Assembly: GCF_013415305.1 (NCBI RefSeq)
Contig: NZ_JACBXU010000001.1
Location: 1,798,001 to 1,862,000 of the forward strand
From: Pantoea sp. WMus005
Lineage (GTDB): Bacteria; Pseudomonadota; Gammaproteobacteria; Enterobacterales; Enterobacteriaceae
Direction of reading: 5' to 3'
DNA length: 64,000 nucleotides
This document shows, piece after piece, positions 1-11,389 of this stretch. The notes below the pieces were generated by a model that did no database searches, was not told the origin of the DNA, and worked only from the letters and a program-made list of their open reading frames with translations. A program made the position numbers and the translations under genes. Within the stretch, counting starts at the first letter, position 1, and the number at the start of each line of letters is the position of its first letter.

Positions 1-461
1 TGGGCAGGATAGAAATCTTTGCGATTCAGCAAACCGACCCGATCCAGCAGCTGTTCCGCCTGGACAATGCAGGCTTTTTTATCACGCTTCAGGACGTAGT
101 GCGGCCCTTCAATGACGTTTTGCAGGACGGTGAGATGCGACCAGAGATTAAAGCTCTGAAACACCATCCCCAGCCGGGAACGCAGCCGCTCAATCTGACG
201 CGGGTTAGCTGCCAGCTGGTGCCCGCGCGCATGACGCTTCATCTCAATGGTTTCACCGCCGACGCTAACCACGCCAGAATCGGGCGTCTCCAGCAAATTA
301 ATACAGCGCAGCAGCGTACTTTTGCCCGAGCCGCTGGCACCGAGAATAGAGATGACATCGCCCTGGTGCGCCTGCAGCGAGATGCCCTTCAGCACCTCCA
401 TCGCGCCAAAGGATTTATGGATGTCGCTGGCCGACAGCGTGACGGGTGGCAGTTCAGACAT
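1..461 (-). CDS. Amino-acid (probably histidine) ABC transporter ATPase, 3' end outside window
   Basis: This is the N-terminal 153 residues of a HisP/GlnQ-type ATPase; the gene runs off the left edge. Walker A (GASGSGKST) lies at residues 41-49 and the Q-loop falls in the stretch MVFQSFNLW. The signature motif and Walker B would be outside the window. The start overlaps the upstream permease gene by 8 bases, and GGAGGAG sits just before the ATG, which supports this start and translational coupling. It is the last visible gene of a leftward binding protein-permease-permease-ATPase operon beside the hut genes. The histidine or urocanate substrate is inferred from that context and from the HutC-like operators upstream of the operon. 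Confidence 0.93.
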   Translation of the reverse strand, partial: MSELPPVTLSASDIHKSFGAMEVLKGISLQAHQGDVISILGASGSGKSTLLRCINLLETPDSGVVSVGGETIEMKRHARGHQLAANPRQIERLRSRLGMVFQSFNLWSHLTVLQNVIEGPHYVLKRDKKACIVQAEQLLDRVGLLNRKDFYPA

Positions 462-1194
462 TTTTTTCTCCTCCGGGGATCGGCTTAGCGGCTGGTAACG
501 GTTTTTTTTCCGGTTTATGAACCGGTGTCAGACGCCGCTCCAGCAGGGCATACAATTGAACAATGATGAAGTTGAGGATCAGGTAGATCGCCGCCGCACA
601 CAGGAACACCTCCATGGTGCGGTAAGTACGCTGGATAATCTGCTGGGCTACCCCGGTGACATCCCACACCGTTACCAGACTGGCCAGCGCGGTCGATTTC
701 ACCAGCAGAATCGCTTCGGTGGAGTACGCAGGCAGCGCATAACGCAGCATCACCGGCGCGATAATGCGCCGCAGCAGCAGGCCACGCGACATACCGCACG
801 CCATCCCCGCTTCCACCTGACCGGGCGGGACCGCCAGCAGTGCGCCACGCAGGATCTCCGCCGTGTAAGCAGCAGTACAGAGCGACAGCGCCAGCACCGC
901 GCAGGTAAAAGGCTCACGCAGAAACGGCCAGAAGACGCTGTGGCGAATCACACCAAACTGTCCCAGACCGTAGTAGATCAGGAACAGCTGGATCATCAGC
1001 GGCGATCCGCGAAACACCAGAATGTAGCCGCGGGCAAATGCACTCAGCAGCCGCCAGCGGCTCATGCGCAGTGCCAGAATGCCCACCGCCAGCACGCCTC
1101 CACAGAGAAAGGCGCTGATAAACAGGCCGAGCGTGACTGGCAGCGCCGCGCTGAGTTTCAGGAAGGTTTCAGTAAGGAACGCAAGATCGATCAT
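454..1194 (-). CDS. Amino-acid ABC transporter permease (HisM-like)
   Basis: Inner-membrane permease of the polar amino-acid uptake family, 246 residues. Several hydrophobic segments are visible, and the cytoplasmic EAA-type loop that contacts the ATPase is recognisable around GMACGMSRGLLLRRIIAP. It follows the other permease gene by 8 bases and overlaps the ATPase gene by 8 bases. The gene order (binding protein, permease, permease, ATPase) is that of hisJQMP. Family assignment is firm. The exact substrate is inferred from location beside hutG and from shared hut-type control sites. Confidence 0.92.
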   Translation of the reverse strand: MIDLAFLTETFLKLSAALPVTLGLFISAFLCGGVLAVGILALRMSRWRLLSAFARGYILVFRGSPLMIQLFLIYYGLGQFGVIRHSVFWPFLREPFTCAVLALSLCTAAYTAEILRGALLAVPPGQVEAGMACGMSRGLLLRRIIAPVMLRYALPAYSTEAILLVKSTALASLVTVWDVTGVAQQIIQRTYRTMEVFLCAAAIYLILNFIIVQLYALLERRLTPVHKPEKKPLPAAKPIPGGEKNV

Positions 1195-1202
1195 AAATGT
1201 CC

Positions 1203-1922
1203 TTAATGCTGTGCAGCGGTGCGGCTTTGCCAGGCGCGGCCCAGACGGGATTCGGCCCGCAAAAAGGCGCGATTCGACAGCAGCGTCAGCAGCAGATAAC
1301 AGGCTCCGCCCACCAGGTAAAAGGAGAAGTAGTCCCGGGTTGAACCGGCCGCAATCTGGCTGGCCCGCATCAGCTCGACAATGCCGGTTACTGACACCAG
1401 CGCCGAATCTTTCAGGCTCATCTGCCAGACGTTTGACAGGCCGGGCAGCGCATAGCGTGCCACCTGCGGCAGCAGAATGCGTTGCCGGATGCGCCAGCGC
1501 GGCATACCAATGGCGACGGCGGCTTCGATCTCCCCTTTCGCCAGTGCCAGCCGTGCGGCACGATAGACTTCCGCCTGGTAAGAGCCAGAGATAAGCCCGA
1601 TCGCCAATGCTCCGATCAGAAACGGCGGCGCTTCGATAAAGCCGTCCGCGCCAAACAGTTGTCCGATCTGCGTGATCAGTCCCGAGCCGCCGAAGTAGAA
1701 CAGGTAGATCACCAGCAGCTCAGGGATGCCACGAAAGATGACCGAGTAGCCTTCCCCCAGCCAGCGTACCGCGCGATGGGAGGATAACTTTGCGGCGGCA
1801 ACGCACGATCCCACCACCGCACCGACCAGCAGTGCGCATAGCGACAGCAGCAACGTGGTCAGCGTGGCACTCAGAATCAACCGTCCCCAGCCGTCCGGGC
1901 CAAAACTCAGCAGGCTTATCAT
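1203..1922 (-). CDS. Amino-acid ABC transporter permease (HisQ-like)
   Basis: Second permease of the same importer, 239 residues, with an N-terminal membrane segment, a conserved FRGIPELL stretch typical of HisQ/HisM permeases, and an EAA loop near AAVAIGMPRWRIRQRILLPQ. It lies 12 bases after the binding-protein gene and 8 bases before the next permease, so the four genes read as one operon. It would form a heterodimeric membrane channel with its partner permease. Specificity is not visible from the sequence itself. Confidence 0.92.
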   Translation of the reverse strand: MISLLSFGPDGWGRLILSATLTTLLLSLCALLVGAVVGSCVAAAKLSSHRAVRWLGEGYSVIFRGIPELLVIYLFYFGGSGLITQIGQLFGADGFIEAPPFLIGALAIGLISGSYQAEVYRAARLALAKGEIEAAVAIGMPRWRIRQRILLPQVARYALPGLSNVWQMSLKDSALVSVTGIVELMRASQIAAGSTRDYFSFYLVGGACYLLLTLLSNRAFLRAESRLGRAWQSRTAAQH

Positions 1923-1934
1923 CAGTTACCTCAC

Positions 1935-2783
1935 TCAGGGTGTGACGTCAGTTTTGAACCACTTCTCGCTCAGCTTTTTCACTGTGCCGTCGGCCAGCGC
2001 GGCTTGGATCGCCTGATCCAGTCGGGCTTTCAGATCGTTGTCTGCCATACGCACGCCCATCGCTTCACCCTCACCCCAGATTGGGCCGCCCAGCTGTGGA
2101 CCGCTGAAACTCAGGTTACGGTTATCCGGCCGCGCCAGCATCGACTGCGCAAAGGTGACGTCGTCAAATACCGCGTCAATCCGCCCCGCCTGCAAATCGA
2201 GGATCGCATCCGCTGAGCTGGTGTATTCGCGGATGTCTGCAACATCTTTGAAATATTTGTCGATGAATGGCGTATAAACCGTGCCGGAGGCGATACCGAT
2301 CGTTTTGCCTTTCAGCGCTGCTTTCAGGGGTGCAATGGCAGGTTCCACGGTTCCGGCGTCGTCGGTGAGTTTGATGATCTTACTGTCAGCGGGCAGCAGT
2401 GACCCTTTTACCGTGATGAAGGTGGCAGGCGTTGAGGCGTAGGGTACGGTGAAATTCACGACTTTCTTGCGGTCGGGCGTAATCACGATCGCATCCATGA
2501 TGACGTCATATTTTCCGGCATTCAGTCCGGCGATCATCCCATCCCAGTTCTGCACCACCAGCTTGCACTGGATCGCCATGCGCTGGCAGAGATCCGCCAT
2601 CAGTTCCGGTTCGAAACCGCCCAGCTTGCCGCCCGGCAGCGTGAGGTTCCAGGGTTCATAACTGCCTTCAGTGGCAATGGTGATTGACTTCCACTCTTTA
2701 GCCTGGGCACTGACGCCACAGAGCAGCAGGCTGGAAACCAGCGTAGTGAGACATAAACGACGAAAAGTCAGAGGGTGTGTCAT
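1935..2783 (-). CDS. Periplasmic amino-acid-binding protein of the hut-linked ABC importer
   Basis: Cluster-3 solute-binding protein of 282 residues. I place the start at 2783, where AGGAGAAC precedes the ATG and a clean signal peptide follows (cleavage expected after VSAQA). A longer reading frame extends upstream to 2963 but would run through two HutC-like operators, so I reject it. The mature part has the usual two-lobe pattern: IATEGSYEPWN near the N-terminus and DAVFDDVTFAQ near the hinge. It is the first gene of the leftward transporter operon. Histidine or urocanate as ligand is inferred from the hut neighbourhood and control region. Confidence 0.9.
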   Translation of the reverse strand: MTHPLTFRRLCLTTLVSSLLLCGVSAQAKEWKSITIATEGSYEPWNLTLPGGKLGGFEPELMADLCQRMAIQCKLVVQNWDGMIAGLNAGKYDVIMDAIVITPDRKKVVNFTVPYASTPATFITVKGSLLPADSKIIKLTDDAGTVEPAIAPLKAALKGKTIGIASGTVYTPFIDKYFKDVADIREYTSSADAILDLQAGRIDAVFDDVTFAQSMLARPDNRNLSFSGPQLGGPIWGEGEAMGVRMADNDLKARLDQAIQAALADGTVKKLSEKWFKTDVTP

Positions 2784-2857
2784 ACGGTTCTCCTGAAGTA
2801 GCGGCCTGGTGATCGCCCTGACGAGATTTAACATAAATTTCACAGGATGATATGTCA

Positions 2858-2867
2858 TGTATATACA
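2858..2867. promoter_or_regulatory. HutC-like operator in the transporter leader
   Basis: TGTATATACA, a perfect 10-base palindrome identical to the cores at the hutI/hutF and hutC promoters. Its centre is 95 bp from the operator at 2952-2963. It lies about 80 bp upstream of the binding-protein start, inside the predicted leader. HutC-family repressors are known to bind TGTA-N2-TACA cores; the function here is inferred. Confidence 0.75.
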
Positions 2868-2951
2868 AGTTAACGCAGCGCAGTTCATTGCCGGCTTTAT
2901 CATTTTGTGAGCCAGACAGAATTTATGATGTGGAGAGTGGCACTGCTTCAC

Positions 2952-2963
2952 TTGTACATACAA
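2952..2963. promoter_or_regulatory. HutC-like operator over the transporter sigma-54 start site
   Basis: TTGTACATACAA has arms TTGTA/TACAA around two central bases. It falls a few bases downstream of the -12 element of the leftward sigma-54-type promoter, so it would cover the transcription start near 2956. Confidence 0.75.
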
Positions 2964-2966
2964 CCT

Positions 2967-2982
2967 AGCAAAGGTTATGCCA
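2967..2982 (-). promoter_or_regulatory. Sigma-54 promoter of the transporter operon
   Basis: On the minus strand this reads TGGCATAACCTTTGCT. It matches the consensus TGGCACG-N4-TTGCW at 10 of 12 fixed positions, with exact spacing. The predicted start is near 2956, giving a leader of about 170 bases. Confidence 0.7.
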
Positions 2983-3043
2983 GCTCTGCAGAGACGGAAG
3001 AAGGGGCGGGAGGATGAGTGCAGGCAGGCAAAACGCCTTTGCC

Positions 3044-3060
3044 TGCACCCAATTGGCGCA
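3044..3060. promoter_or_regulatory. NtrC-like dyad, promoter-proximal site (transporter)
   Basis: TGCACCCAATTGGCGCA differs from the known dyad TGCACC-N5-GGTGCA at one base. Its centre is about 96 bp upstream of the predicted sigma-54 start. It lies between the hutG stop codon and the promoter. Confidence 0.65.
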
Positions 3061-3064
3061 GCGC

Positions 3065-3081
3065 TGCACCGGGGTGGCGCA
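3065..3081. promoter_or_regulatory. NtrC-like dyad, promoter-distal site (transporter)
   Basis: TGCACCGGGGTGGCGCA also differs from TGCACC-N5-GGTGCA at one base. Its centre is 21 bp (two helical turns) from the first site and about 117 bp upstream of the predicted start. It ends 8 bases before the hutG stop codon. Confidence 0.65.
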
Positions 3082-5116: not shown

Positions 5117-5153
5117 TTTACACTGTGCCTCAAAGTATGTATATGTATATACA
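5117..5153 (+). promoter_or_regulatory. hutF promoter and shared hutI/hutF HutC operator
   Basis: For hutF, TTTACA (5117-5122) and TATATG (5140-5145) are 17 bases apart, a plausible sigma-70 promoter. The palindrome TGTATATACA at 5144-5153 overlaps the -10 edge. On the minus strand TATATA inside the same palindrome can serve as the hutI -10, with TTGATC 17 bases upstream. One HutC dimer could therefore block both directions. No sigma-54 element is seen in this 81-base gap. Confidence 0.6.
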
Positions 5154-5176
5154 ACTACATCCGATGAGGATCAACC

Positions 5177-6532: not shown

Positions 6533-7071
6533 TCGCCCGGTTCGCGTACGCAGATCTGGCGGTCAGCCGCTGGCGCAACGGCGGTGGCGAGACCCGCGAA
6601 ATCATCAGCTTCCCGCCCGGCGCGGATCGCTTCAGCTGGCGCGCCAGCATTGCCACCCTGGCGCAGGATGGCCCCTTCTCCGCCTTTCCGGAGATCGATC
6701 GGGTAATTACCCTGCTGCATGGCGATCCGGTGTTATTAACCGCGTCTGATGTGCAGCATCTGTTGACGCCGCAAAAGCCGTGGGCGTTTGCCGGAGAACT
6801 CGCCTTAACGGCGCAGCTGCAGGGCAGCATCAGCGAAGATTTCAATATCATGACGCGACGTGGTGAATGGCAGGCTACGGTAGAGGTGGTTAACACGGCG
6901 GTCAGCGCGCTGCATGGTGTCGCCTGGGTGCTGGGTGGCGCATGGCAGACGGCTGACGGAGAAAAGCTGAGCGCGCAACAGGGCGCGTGGTGGGTCGATG
7001 AAGAGACACAACTCAGCCCGTGTGACACGGATGCCCGGCTGCTGTTTGCCCGACTTAACCGTGTCCTCTGA
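6529..7071 (+). CDS. hutD: HutD family protein
   Basis: A 180-residue HutD-family cupin-like protein; the WRNGGGETREI stretch near the N-terminus is typical. In Pseudomonas, HutD has been proposed to limit hut expression, but its biochemical role is not settled. The start overlaps the hutF stop (ATGA), so it is translationally coupled. The 3' end overlaps the convergent hutC gene by 17 bases. Confidence 0.88.
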   Translation: MIARFAYADLAVSRWRNGGGETREIISFPPGADRFSWRASIATLAQDGPFSAFPEIDRVITLLHGDPVLLTASDVQHLLTPQKPWAFAGELALTAQLQGSISEDFNIMTRRGEWQATVEVVNTAVSALHGVAWVLGGAWQTADGEKLSAQQGAWWVDEETQLSPCDTDARLLFARLNRVL

Positions 7072-7810
7072 AGCGGCCCAGTAGTTTGTAACGTGAGCCG
7101 GGATAGAGCAGCCGCGCATACGTCACGATCTTCGTGTCGCTCCAGGTCTGACGACGAATCAGCAGGCAGGGATCGTGCTCGTCCAGCGACAGATGTTTAC
7201 GCTGACGCGCATCGGGCAGCACCGCTTCAACGATGTGCTCGCCCGCCGTCAGCGGCGCGACCCGCATCAGATAGGTGTACGGCGTCATCTTCTCATAATC
7301 CTGCGTCAGGTAGTCGGGCGCGACCAGCGGGTTGACCAGACGATCCTCCAGCTGCACCGGCAGGTCATTTTCGTAATGCACAATCAGCGAATGGAAGAGC
7401 GTCTGCCCGGTAGTAAGTCCCAGTACCGCAGCCTGCTCGGGATCGGCTTTGTTCTGACCGATGGCGAGAATTTTGCTGCTGTGCTGATGGCCGCGCTGGG
7501 CAATCTCATCGGCAATGTTATGCACCTCCAGCATGGCGGTGTAGCCTTTCATCTCTGCCACGAAGGTTCCGACGCCCTGCATCCGCACCAGGAAGCCCTC
7601 GCTGGTCAGTTCGCGCAACGCCCGGTTAATGGTCATGCGGCTGACGCCCAGTTCATTGACCAGTTCACTTTCTGATGGCACACGCTGATTCGCTTTCCAC
7701 AACCCTTCACGAATCTGGCTGACGATAGCCTGCTTCACCCGCTGATAGATCGGGGCAGGTTCATCGCTCATTGCCGCCGCCAGTTGTGCCAGTGCTGTAT
7801 GCTCGACCAT
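7055..7810 (-). CDS. hutC: Histidine utilisation repressor HutC
   Basis: GntR-family repressor of the HutC subfamily, 251 residues from the start I choose at 7810 (AAGGAACAGCAA before the ATG). The N-terminal winged helix-turn-helix includes VPSESELVNELGVSRMTINRAL, followed by a UTRA ligand-binding domain; urocanate is the known inducer in the family. A longer frame reaches 8029 but would include a HutC-like operator and the intergenic control region, so I reject it. The palindrome at 7862-7873, 53 bp upstream, suggests autorepression. The gene diverges from hutHU and converges on hutFD. Confidence 0.95.
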   Translation of the reverse strand: MVEHTALAQLAAAMSDEPAPIYQRVKQAIVSQIREGLWKANQRVPSESELVNELGVSRMTINRALRELTSEGFLVRMQGVGTFVAEMKGYTAMLEVHNIADEIAQRGHQHSSKILAIGQNKADPEQAAVLGLTTGQTLFHSLIVHYENDLPVQLEDRLVNPLVAPDYLTQDYEKMTPYTYLMRVAPLTAGEHIVEAVLPDARQRKHLSLDEHDPCLLIRRQTWSDTKIVTYARLLYPGSRYKLLGRFRGHG

Positions 7811-7861: not shown

Positions 7862-7873
7862 ATGTATATACAT
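7862..7873. promoter_or_regulatory. HutC-like operator at the hutC promoter
   Basis: ATGTATATACAT is a perfect 12-base palindrome with the same TGTATATACA core as the hutI/hutF and transporter-leader sites. It is positioned to repress hutC itself. Confidence 0.7.
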
Positions 7874-7887
7874 CCAGTAGAGCACCC

Positions 7888-7904
7888 GCTGCCCTACTGG
7901 TGCA
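7888..7904. promoter_or_regulatory. NtrC-like site, promoter-distal (hutH)
   Basis: The right half TGGTGCA (7898-7904) is perfect; the left half is poor. Its centre is 22 bp from the second site and about 120 bp upstream of the predicted hutH start. This is the weakest of the four NtrC-like sites. Confidence 0.4.
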
Positions 7905-7909
7905 GTCTG

Positions 7910-7926
7910 CGCATCCTCATGGTGCA
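7910..7926. promoter_or_regulatory. NtrC-like site, promoter-proximal (hutH)
   Basis: CGCATCCTCATGGTGCA has a perfect right half TGGTGCA and four of seven left-half matches. Its centre is about 98 bp upstream of the predicted sigma-54 start, almost the same distance as in the transporter promoter. Confidence 0.55.
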
Positions 7927-7989
7927 GCCTCTGTAATGCTTTCAGGACGTAACCCGCAGCGGGCAGAGATTCGATTTTTGTGATCGGCC

Positions 7990-8005
7990 TGGCACGACGC
8001 TTGCT
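7990..8005 (+). promoter_or_regulatory. Sigma-54 promoter of hutHU
   Basis: TGGCACGACGCTTGCT matches TGGCACG-N4-TTGCW at all fixed positions. GG is at 7991-7992 and GC at 8003-8004, which predicts a start near 8016 and a leader of about 120 bases before hutH. Confidence 0.8.
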
Positions 8006-8017
8006 TTCAATACTTGA

Positions 8018-8040
8018 TTGTATAGACAAGCATAGACAAG
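8018..8040. promoter_or_regulatory. HutC-like operator over the hutH start site
   Basis: TTGTATAGACAAG at 8018-8030 is an imperfect palindrome, followed directly by a repeat of its right part (ATAGACAAG at 8032-8040). It covers roughly +3 to +25 of the sigma-54 transcript. Confidence 0.75.
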
Positions 8041-8114
8041 GGTTAACGCTTATGTTTCACTCGAATTATTCCGCTGGTCAGGGCAAGAAAAGCAGCTTAG
8101 CCACGCCAGCACAC

Positions 8115-8126
8115 TTGTATAGACAG
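8115..8126. promoter_or_regulatory. Second HutC-like operator next to the hutH ribosome-binding site
   Basis: TTGTATAGACAG repeats the first operator's sequence, 97 bp away centre to centre. Its last bases merge with the AGGAG ribosome-binding site (8125-8129) for the hutH ATG at 8136. Confidence 0.7.
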
Positions 8127-8135
8127 GAGTAGACT

Positions 8136-9704
8136 ATGTCAGGTTCGTTTCAGGCTTTGCGCCTGGTGCCAGGCGAGGTGGACCTCGCCACATTACGCGC
8201 TATCTATCAGGGTAACGTCACGCTGAGCCTTGATGAGAGTGCGCATCAGGCGATTGCGGCAGCCCAGCAGACCGTGGATGCGATTGTCGCCTCTGGCAAC
8301 GTGGTGTATGGCATTAATACCGGCTTCGGCAAACTGGCGCAGACGCAAATCCCGGCCAGCCGGCTGGCGGATCTGCAGCGTAATCTGGTGCTGTCACACA
8401 GCGTCGGGCTGGGCGATCTGTTGCCCGACAATGTCACCCGTCTGGTAGTCGCGACCAAAATCATCAGCCTGGCGCGCGGTCACTCTGGCGTACGTATCGA
8501 ACTGGTTGAGGCGCTGCTGGCGCTGTTCAACGCGGGCGTGATGCCCTGCATCCCGGAAAAAGGGTCGGTCGGGGCTTCCGGCGATCTCGCACCGCTGGCG
8601 CACATGTCGCTGATGCTGCTGGGCGAAGGTCAGGTCCGGCTCAATGGCGGGTTAATTCCTGCCACAGAAGGACTGGCAAGCGTCGGCCTGTCGCCGTTTG
8701 TGCCTGGTCCAAAAGAAGGACTGGCGCTGCTTAACGGCACCCAGGTGTCGACTGCGCTGGCGCTGCGCGGCCTGTTTGAAGGTGAAAACCTGTTTGCTGC
8801 CGGTCTGATGGCGGGTGCGCTGTCGCTGGAAGCGATCAAAGGCTCGCTGAAACCGTTCGACGCCCGTATCCACAAGGCGCGGGGTCAGCAGGGCCAGATT
8901 GCGGTCGCCGCCGCCGTCAGCACCCTGATTGAGGGCAGTGAAATTCTGCAGTCGCATACGCATTGCGGCCGTGTACAGGACCCCTACTCCATCCGCTGCG
9001 TGCCGCAGGTGATGGGTGCCTGCCTGGACAATTTCAGCCATGCGGCACGCATTCTGGAAATCGAAGCGAACGCAGCCTCGGATAACCCGCTGGTGTTCAG
9101 TGACAGCGGCGATGTGATCTCCGGCGGCAACTTCCACGCCGAACCGGTGGCCTTTGCCGCTGACATCCTGGCGCTGGCCATTGCCGAAGTCGGGGCCATC
9201 TCCGAGCGGCGTATGGCGTTGCTGCTGGACAGCGGCCTGTCCGGTCTGCCGCCCTTCCTGGTGCGCGACGGCGGCGTGAACTCCGGCTTTATGATCGCCC
9301 AGGTCACCGCCGCTGCGCTGGCCTCTGAGAATAAATCGCTGGCCCATCCGGGCAGCGTGGACAGTCTGCCGACCTCCGCTAACCAGGAGGATCACGTTTC
9401 GATGGCGACCTACGCCGCCCGCCGTCTCGGCAGCATGTGCTTTAACAGCGCTGCCGTGGTCGGTATCGAAGCGATGGCCGCCGCGCAGGGCATTGAATTC
9501 AACCGGCCACTGAGAAGCTCCTCGCTGATTGAGCAGGCCATCGACACCATTCGCGAGCAGGTCGCCTTCCTTGAGGAGGATCGCCTGCTGGCGCCCGATA
9601 TTGAGGCAATGCGTCAGTGGGCAAGTCGCACTGACTGGCCTCAGGCATTGACCGCGCTGCTGCCAAGCATGCGCCCAACTTCAGCTGAATTAAGGAATCT
9701 GTAA
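8136..9704 (+). CDS. hutH: Histidine ammonia-lyase HutH
   Basis: First step of histidine degradation: L-histidine gives urocanate + ammonia. The 522-residue protein has the Ala147-Ser148-Gly149 triad in [14 protein letters not shown], which cyclises to the MIO electrophile in this family. [11 protein letters not shown] at the N-terminus is also typical. AGGAG precedes the ATG. The stop codon overlaps the hutU start by one base (TAATG), so the two are co-translated. Control is predicted from a sigma-54 promoter with NtrC-like sites and two HutC-like operators. Confidence 0.97.
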
Positions 9705-11389
9705 TGAGCGAAACTCTTTCTCAGGCGGTAGCACGTGAGATTCGTGCGCCGCATGGCACCACGCTGCACTGCGCTAACTGGCTGATTGAAGCGGCTTACC
9801 GCATGATTCAGAACAACCTTGATCCCGATGTGGCCGAGCGCCCGGAAGATCTGGTGGTTTACGGCGGCATCGGCAAAGCAGCGCGAAACTGGGCGTGTTT
9901 TGAGCAGATCCTGCGTTCGCTGCGGGCGCTGCAGCCGGATGAAACGTTGCTGATCCAGAGTGGCAAGCCGGTCGGCATCTTCCGCACCCACGCGGATGCA
10001 CCGCGCGTCCTGCTGGCGAACTCCAACCTGGTGCCGCACTGGGCGACCTGGGATCACTTCCATGAGCTGGATAAAGCAGGCCTGATGATGTACGGCCAGA
10101 TGACCGCCGGTTCCTGGATCTACATCGGCGCGCAGGGCATCGTGCAGGGCACCTACGAAACCTTCGTCGAAGCGGGACGTCAGCACTATAACAACGACCT
10201 CAGCGGACGCTGGATCCTCACCGCCGGGCTGGGCGGCATGGGCGGCGCGCAACCACTGGCGGGCGTCCTGGCCGGAGCCTGTGTGCTGGCGATTGAGTGC
10301 CAGGAGTCACGCATCGATTTCCGTCTGCGTACCCGCTACGTCGACTATAAAGCCACTACGCTGGACGAAGCGCTGGCCATCATCAGTGAAGCCACCGCAG
10401 CGAAAAAAGCGATTTCAGTCGGCCTGCTGGGCAATGCTGCTGAGATCCTGCCGGAACTGGTGAAGCGCGCTCAGGCGGGCGGGCCGAAGCCGGACATCGT
10501 GACCGATCAGACCTCTGCGCACGATCCGATTAATGGCTATCTGCCGATTGGCTGGGATCTGGCGCGCTGGCAACAGGAGCGCATTTCACAGCCGAAAGCG
10601 GTTGAGAAAGCCGCGCGCGCCTCTATGGCAATTCACGTCCAGGCGATGCTCGACTTCTGTCATATGGGCATCCCGACGGTGGATTATGGCAACAACATCC
10701 GCCAGGTGGCGCTGGATGAGGGTGTCAGCAACGCCTTCGATTTCCCTGGCTTTGTACCCGCCTATATCCGCCCGCTGTTTTGTGAAGGCAAAGGCCCGTT
10801 CCGCTGGGTGGCGCTGTCTGGTGACCCGGAGGATATCTACAAGACCGACGCAAAACTCAAAGAGCTGTTCCCGCACCACAAAACGTTGCATCGCTGGCTG
10901 GATATGGCGCAGGAGCGCATCGCCTTCCAGGGCCTGCCGGCACGTATCTGCTGGCTGGGACTGGGTGAGCGGCATCTTGCCGGTCTGGCATTCAACGAAA
11001 TGGTGCGCAACGGCGAGCTGAAAGCGCCGGTGGTAATTGGCCGCGACCATCTCGACTGCGGTTCAGTCGCCTCACCAAACCGTGAGACCGAAGCGATGAA
11101 AGATGGCTCTGATGCCGTCTCTGACTGGCCGCTGCTTAACGCGCTGCTGAATACTGCAGGCGGCGCGACCTGGGTCAGCCTGCATCATGGCGGCGGTGTT
11201 GGCATGGGCTTCTCGCAGCACGCTGGTGTGGTGATTGTTGCCGACGGCAGCAAAGAGGCCGATGCGCGCCTGAGCCGCGTGCTATGGAACGATCCGGCTA
11301 CAGGTGTGATGCGTCACGCCGATGCAGGTTATGAGCTGGCGCAGAGTTGCGCGGCAGATCATGGCCTGAACCTCCCGATGCAGAAGTAG
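9704..11389 (+). CDS. hutU: Urocanate hydratase HutU
   Basis: Converts urocanate to 4-imidazolone-5-propionate using a tightly bound NAD+. The 561-residue length is normal. The NAD-binding region is visible as [10 protein letters not shown]. Cys416 in [11 protein letters not shown] is the probable counterpart of the reactive cysteine of Pseudomonas urocanase. The start overlaps the hutH stop by one base, and a strong terminator follows 10 bases after the stop, so hutHU is a two-gene unit. Confidence 0.97.

Follow-up and report, generated by a model that had tools for sequence, protein, structure and literature searches.

Recurring sigma-54, NtrC-type and HutC-type elements in front of a hut-linked transporter operon and hutHU of Pantoea

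Here we describe two promoters located in a 64,000-nucleotide stretch of the Pantoea sp. WMus005 genome (the window, by which the whole stretch is meant), one in front of an ABC transporter operon and the other in front of hutHU. Their anatomy is a firm observation, and so are its conservation and the fact that it recurs at these genes in different genera of Enterobacterales. Taking all analyses together, we consider it highly probable that the transporter operon and hutHU are driven by two sigma-54 promoters subject to the same double gate, which would require NtrC-phosphate acting with sigma-54 and, at the same time, relief of HutC repression by urocanate.

The hut genes of the window are hutG, hutI, hutF, a Ves/HutD-like gene, hutC, hutH and hutU, with the ABC transporter placed leftward of hutG; both hutC and the HutF/HutG deformylase pathway are thereby present within the cluster. 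The product of hutC (7055..7810, minus strand), the GntR-family histidine utilisation repressor, scores over the cut-off of TIGR02018, and hutH, which contains Ala-Ser-Gly (8136..9704, plus strand), is followed by hutU (9704-11389). The transporter genes lie on the minus strand and encode a substrate-binding protein of the HisJ/LAO/octopine-binding family (1935..2783), a HisQ/ArtQ-like permease (1203..1922), an ArtM/HisM-like permease (454..1194) and a HisP-like ATPase (3..461), which runs past the window edge and is followed outside the window by hutH2.

Read on the minus strand, the transporter promoter consists of a distal dyad, a proximal dyad, a sigma-54 element, operator 1, operator 2 and the start codon at 2783. 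The distal NtrC-type dyad (3065..3081, TGCACC-GGGGT-GGCGCA), lying 8 bp past the hutG stop codon, and the proximal one (3044..3060, TGCACC-CAATT-GGCGCA), centred about 97 bp upstream of the predicted start site, are 21 bp apart and their half-sites are aligned in relatives. Each differs from TGCACC-N5-GGTGCA by one mismatch, exactly as the sequence-only reading had it, and the sigma-54-like element which that reading had placed on the minus strand (2967..2982, TGGCATAACCTTTGCT) proved to be an exact match to the -24/-12 pattern TGGCAY-N5-TTGCW. HutC-type operator 1 (2952..2963, minus-strand reading TTGTATGTACAA) overlaps the predicted transcription start, operator 2 (2857..2868, minus-strand reading TTGTATATACAT) is located in the leader, and each is one mismatch away from TTGTATATACAA and matches the TGTA-N2-TACA core (TGTATGTACA, TGTATATACA). 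A block GGCTCACAAA was also noticed between the two operators (2904-2913, minus strand), of which GCTCACA is found in 23 of 25 Pantoea orthologs. An upstream in-frame extension of the binding-protein reading frame (342 aa) was discarded as a chance feature, since the open frame varies among orthologs.

On the plus strand, the elements in front of hutH run in the same order: dyads, sigma-54 element, operator 1, operator 2. The sigma-54 element (7990..8005, TGGCACGACGCTTGCT) is again exact. The earlier claim that hutH and the transporter share one architecture stands for the order, the sigma-54 element, the dyad spacing and the operators, but the hutH dyads are weak: the proximal one (7910..7926, CGCATCCTCATGGTGCA) has two mismatches, and the distal position (7888..7904) keeps an intact right half-site GGTGCA next to a poor left half, with four mismatches in all. 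Operator 1 (8018..8029, TTGTATAGACAA) and operator 2 (8115..8126, TTGTATAGACAGGAG), the latter adjoining and overlapping the ribosome-binding site, are one base off the TGTA-N2-TACA core (TGTATAGACA). Further HutC-type operators were located next to hutC (7862..7873, ATGTATATACAT), where one possibly serves hutC autoregulation, and in the hutI-hutF intergenic region (5143..5154).

Some other features of these regions may be recorded here. The hutH leader holds a block CTTATGNTTCACTC at 8049-8062; its form [AG]TGNTTCACT occurs in 34/34 Pantoea regions, in 33 of which it would translate to MxHS. A small open reading frame (MxHS...) in this leader was rejected, as the start is kept among relatives and the frame beyond it is not. 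Directly 5' of the hutH sigma-54 element there is TGTGATC (7979-7985), which to us resembles half a CRP site; GTGATC is present in 24/34 regions, and the motif is absent at the transporter. RNA structure in the two leaders was also set aside: on gappy alignments, RNAalifold gave -2.8 and -1.3 kcal/mol, compared with 0 in 20 column shuffles per leader, values too weak to use.

Conservation was followed in 36 Pantoea genomes, this one included; they are related, so the counts describe conservation and are not independent trials. An ortholog of the binding protein (80-100% identity) is present in 25 of them, and in 25/25 the exact sigma-54 element precedes the gene by 96-204 bp. Operator 1 was found in 24 and operator 2 in all 25 of these orthologs, both together in 24. 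At one transporter (L054) a single operator, operator 2, immediately adjoins the sigma-54 element, which looks like a deletion of everything between the two operators and makes this a natural one-operator promoter. In front of hutH, the exact sigma-54 element is retained in 29 of 34 Pantoea regions, the remaining 5 having no intact element, and the start codon follows operator 2 at a distance of about 21 bp in 33/34 (up to 3 mismatches allowed). The pair of dyads was compared with 300 dinucleotide shuffles per promoter, using a pair spacing of 20-23 bp that was taken from the finding itself. In Pantoea, 24/25 transporter promoters and 27/29 hutH promoters with sigma-54 gave p<0.05, being related promoters rather than independent tests. 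The failures were one transporter (L052, p 0.09, no pair) and two hutH promoters above p 0.05 (L036 and L072); in L036-L039 and L043 the best hutH dyad site has 4 mismatches.

The transporter promoter is kept even where it is not linked to hut. In three genomes (G007, G027 and G029) the 11 kb flanking the transporter on its hut side yielded no hutG, hutI, hutF, hutC or hutH, the hut cluster being on another contig in G007 and G029 and about 860 kb away in G027, and the unlinked transporter keeps its sigma-54 element and both operators. In the same three genomes and in G009, the hutH sigma-54 element is split in the alignment by 11 extra bases and the dyad region is lost; G010 also has no sigma-54 element at hutH. 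The motif ATA-N9-TAT, which we take to be the NAC core, is found upstream of hutH in four of these five regions (G007, G027, G029 and G009; absent from G010) and in 0/29 regions with sigma-54, this window included; its chance occurrence is estimated at about 7% of 300-bp stretches. Loss of sigma-54 at hutH together with ATA-N9-TAT was probably one evolutionary event, an observation made post hoc. These features, a broken sigma-54 element, a lost dyad region and an ATA-N9-TAT absent elsewhere, mark the hutH upstream regions of L062, L063, L064 and L068.

Beyond the genus sample, the GTDB collection was scanned for a sigma-54 element followed, after 0-14 nt, by TTGTATRKACA, and many of the records belong to the same Pantoea species as that sample. 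The 119 matches in 105 stretches are divided into 33 before the transporter, 47 before hutH and 39 others, four of which (L145, L148, L155 and L200) are truncated at the edge of their locus, their upstream genes marking them as hutH or transporter cases. Genera with hutH or transporter matches include Pantoea, Erwinia, Mixta, Winslowiella, Izhakiella, Mangrovibacter, Biostraticola, Brenneria and Prodigiosinella. Twelve matches in records outside Enterobacterales by name look random, and L195, filed as Pseudomonas, resembles the Pantoea locus L159. A dyad pair at p<0.05 accompanied 28/33 transporter, 35/46 hutH and 16/39 other promoters. In an even sample of the GTDB order, 4 of 394 genomes matched, all of them Pantoea. 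Within the GTDB family, a hutH homolog is present in 55 of 149 genomes, and 30 loci were read, the window's own among them: an exact sigma-54 element occurs within 420 bp in 8/27 close homologs (at least 72% identity) and in 0/3 distant ones, where hutU precedes hutH and the operon promoter is out of reach. Loss of the element at 5/34 Pantoea hutH genes and its presence at only 8/27 in the family indicate that sigma-54 control is not essential to hut.

These comparisons also decide how far the two promoters share one geometry, which the sequence-only reading had called nearly identical. That description holds for the distance from the NtrC-type sites to the sigma-54 element and, in most relatives, for the distance from this element to operator 1, which starts 3 nt after it in 25/33 transporter and 2 nt after it in 41/47 hutH matches (0-14 nt being allowed). 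In the present genome the latter gap is not alike, as it measures 3 nt at the transporter versus 12 nt at hutH; the 12-nt form, holding a repeated TAGACAAG, occurs in 6 of 34 Pantoea hutH regions (this genome included), against 2 nt in 23 and 5 regions without the element. Nor is the agreement of 95 and 97 bp between the operators a conserved property. The spacing is 94-97 bp in 26/33 transporters and 69-120 bp at hutH in the named records, so that the match is a coincidence, and the same variation rules out helical phasing or looping as its basis.

It may be asked whether the two promoters are copies produced by duplication or gene conversion, in which case the recurrence would represent one event. 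The five inner bases of the sigma-54 element are in fact slightly more alike within genomes (2.1 versus 2.5 mismatches in shuffled pairs, p 0.014) and identical in 5/19 genomes; this p value, however, ignores kinship. Against copying, when the two promoters within each genome are compared, the 45-bp spacers that separate the NtrC sites from the sigma-54 element show no similarity (19 genomes, median p 0.41, 2/19 below 0.05), and the operator 1 cores are promoter-specific (TATGTA versus TATAGA) in almost every region read. We thus regard copying as unlikely. Since the spacers are no more alike than shuffled sequence, a recent duplication is unsupported and the recurrence may be called independent in this sense, as had been proposed; an ancient common origin is still compatible with the data. 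On sequence grounds, we read the transporter and hutH promoters as separate promoters apparently held to one design.

The gate which we propose would work as follows. Under nitrogen limitation, NtrC-phosphate would bind the dyad pair of each promoter, whose centres lie 70-94 bp upstream of the -24/-12 element, and would activate sigma-54 RNA polymerase, as suggested by the motif, its spacing and the presence of ntrC (810 bits, over the cut-off) and rpoN. Without urocanate, HutC, whose gene is likewise present, would occupy operator 1 and block promoter melting or escape, the position of this operator over the predicted start being suited to such a block and not to one of closed-complex binding; HutC on operator 2 would provide a second block. 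By analogy with Pseudomonas HutC, urocanate would release the repressor. Joint induction of uptake and the first catabolic step would therefore be confined to conditions of nitrogen shortage in which histidine is being broken down.

The dyads might instead be occupied by another enhancer-binding protein than NtrC. Below its cut-off, the ntrC model also matches four further proteins encoded in the genome, over 240-382 positions, and the hutH dyads are weak. The transporter dyads, on the other hand, are one mismatch each from the NtrC consensus, and one-mismatch dyads were obtained by the same scan at E. coli hisJ and nac; none was obtained at E. coli argT, so the scan is not fully sensitive. 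Moreover, NtrC is reported to activate PhutU in Pseudomonas (PMC8871633). We find a different activator improbable, and NtrC remains our preferred candidate. As for NAC, a nac ortholog (71-75% identity) is present in 34/36 Pantoea genomes, in two pieces in G017, with only a distant match in G014. NAC was rejected as the present activator of hutH here, the core site ATA-N9-TAT being absent; the enteric NAC route would be available, as nac is encoded, but it does not appear to be what the hutH upstream region points to.

Another possibility is that the transporter is expressed mainly by read-through from hutIG, its own promoter being minor or a relic. The hutG gene ends very close to the distal dyad, as given above, and on the minus strand no T-run comes after the inverted repeat at 3018-3048, both of which would fit read-through. 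Exact retention of the element in all the orthologs, including the three genomes with the transporter unlinked from hut, makes this explanation very improbable, and we retain an active sigma-54 promoter as the likelier source of the transporter mRNA.

Genome-wide counts bear on chance. A search of the 4.49-Mb genome with TGGCAY-N5-TTGCW gave 26 exact matches, two of which are the transporter and hutH sites; the reversed pattern gave 2. NtrC-type dyads with up to two mismatches number 283 versus 82 in the control; the only perfect one among the matches listed (C40:12667-12683) is situated 1.1 kb upstream of ntrC. HutC-type 12-mers with up to two mismatches are not enriched in the whole genome (53 versus 71 in the control), and the HutC-type motif alone proves nothing, even if four of the five one-mismatch matches listed are in the hut cluster. 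Of the exact sigma-54 matches elsewhere in the genome, 0/24 had a HutC-type operator (up to two mismatches) nearby and 4 had an upstream dyad (up to two mismatches). Scoring against shuffled or control sequence thus bore out the dyad pair, the sigma-54 element and the dyads genome-wide, but not the HutC-type sites taken alone. That a chance resemblance of degenerate motifs explains the recurrence, as the frequency of isolated HutC-type sites might suggest, is hardly credible in view of the 26 versus 2 exact sigma-54 sites, the element kept exactly in all 25 transporter orthologs, the dyad pairs surpassing shuffles, the clustering of sigma-54-plus-operator matches before the transporter and hutH in named genomes and the conservation across species, and in this respect the original judgement was sound.

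Among the remaining matches of the GTDB scan, the combination of sigma-54 element and HutC-type operator precedes a HisC-like transaminase in L131 and L175 (assigned by HMM) and in L150 (by likeness), and an FMN alpha-hydroxy-acid dehydrogenase in L188, with a HutC paralog (60% identity) adjacent in L131 and L188. A second, transamination-type locus for histidine or imidazole catabolism is possible in these four cases. The combination also precedes NMT1/SsuA-like binding proteins of two kinds: the first in L122, L126, L147, L153, L159, L161, L171, L174, L189, L190, L199 and L205, the second in L114, L116, L160, L176 and L201 (Serratia, Brenneria and related records), with HutF and/or HutD upstream; the grouping rests on HMM for L122 and L116 and on sequence likeness for the rest. 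In some Erwinia and Pantoea records (L117, L145 and L167) a HutC paralog (61-63% identity) is divergent from the transporter promoter.

The products of the transporter operon bear on what is taken up. The closest PDB entries to the binding protein are the octopine- and nopaline-binding proteins, then the HisJ and LAO proteins, and its score with NCBIfam TIGR01096 (218 bits) is under the cut-off of 256. In HisJ, Arg77 and Asp161 hold the alpha-amino acid. Residues R105 and D207 of the Pantoea protein align with the alpha-amino-acid contacts in HisJ and ArgT, and the kept Arg and Asp suggest that the substrate may be an amino acid, for example histidine, and not urocanate. The operon ends with HutH2, a 505-aa histidase paralog 41% identical to HutH (L055:4154-5671, outside the window, downstream of 3-461), and its gene order is kept in 13/13 other Pantoea loci and in 5/7 loci of other genera. 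In this genome and in 20/20 homologs, one of which (L265) is only 44% identical, HutH2 has lost the MIO-forming Ala-Ser-Gly through a deletion (GSVGY---L), while ASGDL is intact in HutH at the 30 family loci and in the 7 class-level matches read. In a class sample of 321 genomes no HutH2-type protein was found beyond this genome; the 7 other matches at E 1e-100 are 40-42% identical and contain ASGDL. The dN/dS of HutH2, 0.05-0.15 in 10 pairs, shows purifying selection. We tentatively suggest, at somewhat short of an even chance, an uptake-plus-sensor operon in which HutH2 would act as a histidine-binding protein or as a partner of HutH in mixed tetramers, adjusting flux or the urocanate signal that reaches HutC, or would perform MIO-independent chemistry.

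According to the textbook view, hut is controlled by NAC with sigma-70 in enteric bacteria and by sigma-54 in pseudomonads; Klebsiella hut in particular depends on NAC, sigma-70, CRP and HutC. Pantoea, a member of the same bacterial order, resembles Klebsiella in having presumably HutC-repressed hut genes and a nac ortholog, but differs in carrying sigma-54/NtrC elements at hutH, with the NAC core in 0/29 sigma-54 regions. The closer likeness in these elements is to Pseudomonas PhutU, a promoter served by NtrC/CbrB, sigma-54 and HutC. There HutC binds TGTA-N2-TACA over the PhutU sigma-54 site, from which urocanate releases it (PMC12977541), and NtrC occupies a pair of palindromes further upstream (PMC8871633); CbrAB is said to be confined to the Pseudomonas family (PMC8871633). 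Pantoea shares with PhutU a sigma-54 hut promoter with two upstream NtrC palindromes (PMC12977541; PMC8871633), a HutC operator with the TGTA-N2-TACA core over the sigma-54/start region and the HutF/HutG pathway (PMC12977541; PMC5343134). Unlike there, hutH precedes hutU, two separate sigma-54 promoters serve the transporter and hutHU, and each promoter has two operators roughly 70-120 bp apart. Salmonella hutH is reported to have risen in a sigma-54 array, although a sigma-54 binding site was not found there (PMC3844500). In the related transporter argT-hisJQMP of E. coli and Salmonella, argT is listed as a sigma-54/NtrC operon (PMC3844500); argT and hisJ each have a sigma-54-like element, and hisJ has an NtrC-type dyad as well. 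Unlike the Pantoea operon, this transporter has no HutC operator and, in the stretch read, no hutH paralog, and its binding proteins are only 28-33% identical to that of Pantoea. A literature search, with subscription journals mostly outside it, gave no description of sigma-54 control of hut in Pantoea or Erwinia, or of an MIO-less HutH.

HutC targets can be searched for by the combination of a sigma-54 element and a HutC-type operator located at the start site. Presented results describe an enteric group which, despite carrying nac, has the sigma-54 form of hut control at two promoters, and in which a few genomes have lost sigma-54 at hutH only. Kept at the unlinked transporter and lost at some hutH genes, the sigma-54 element offers a natural series for how a regulon switches its sigma factor.
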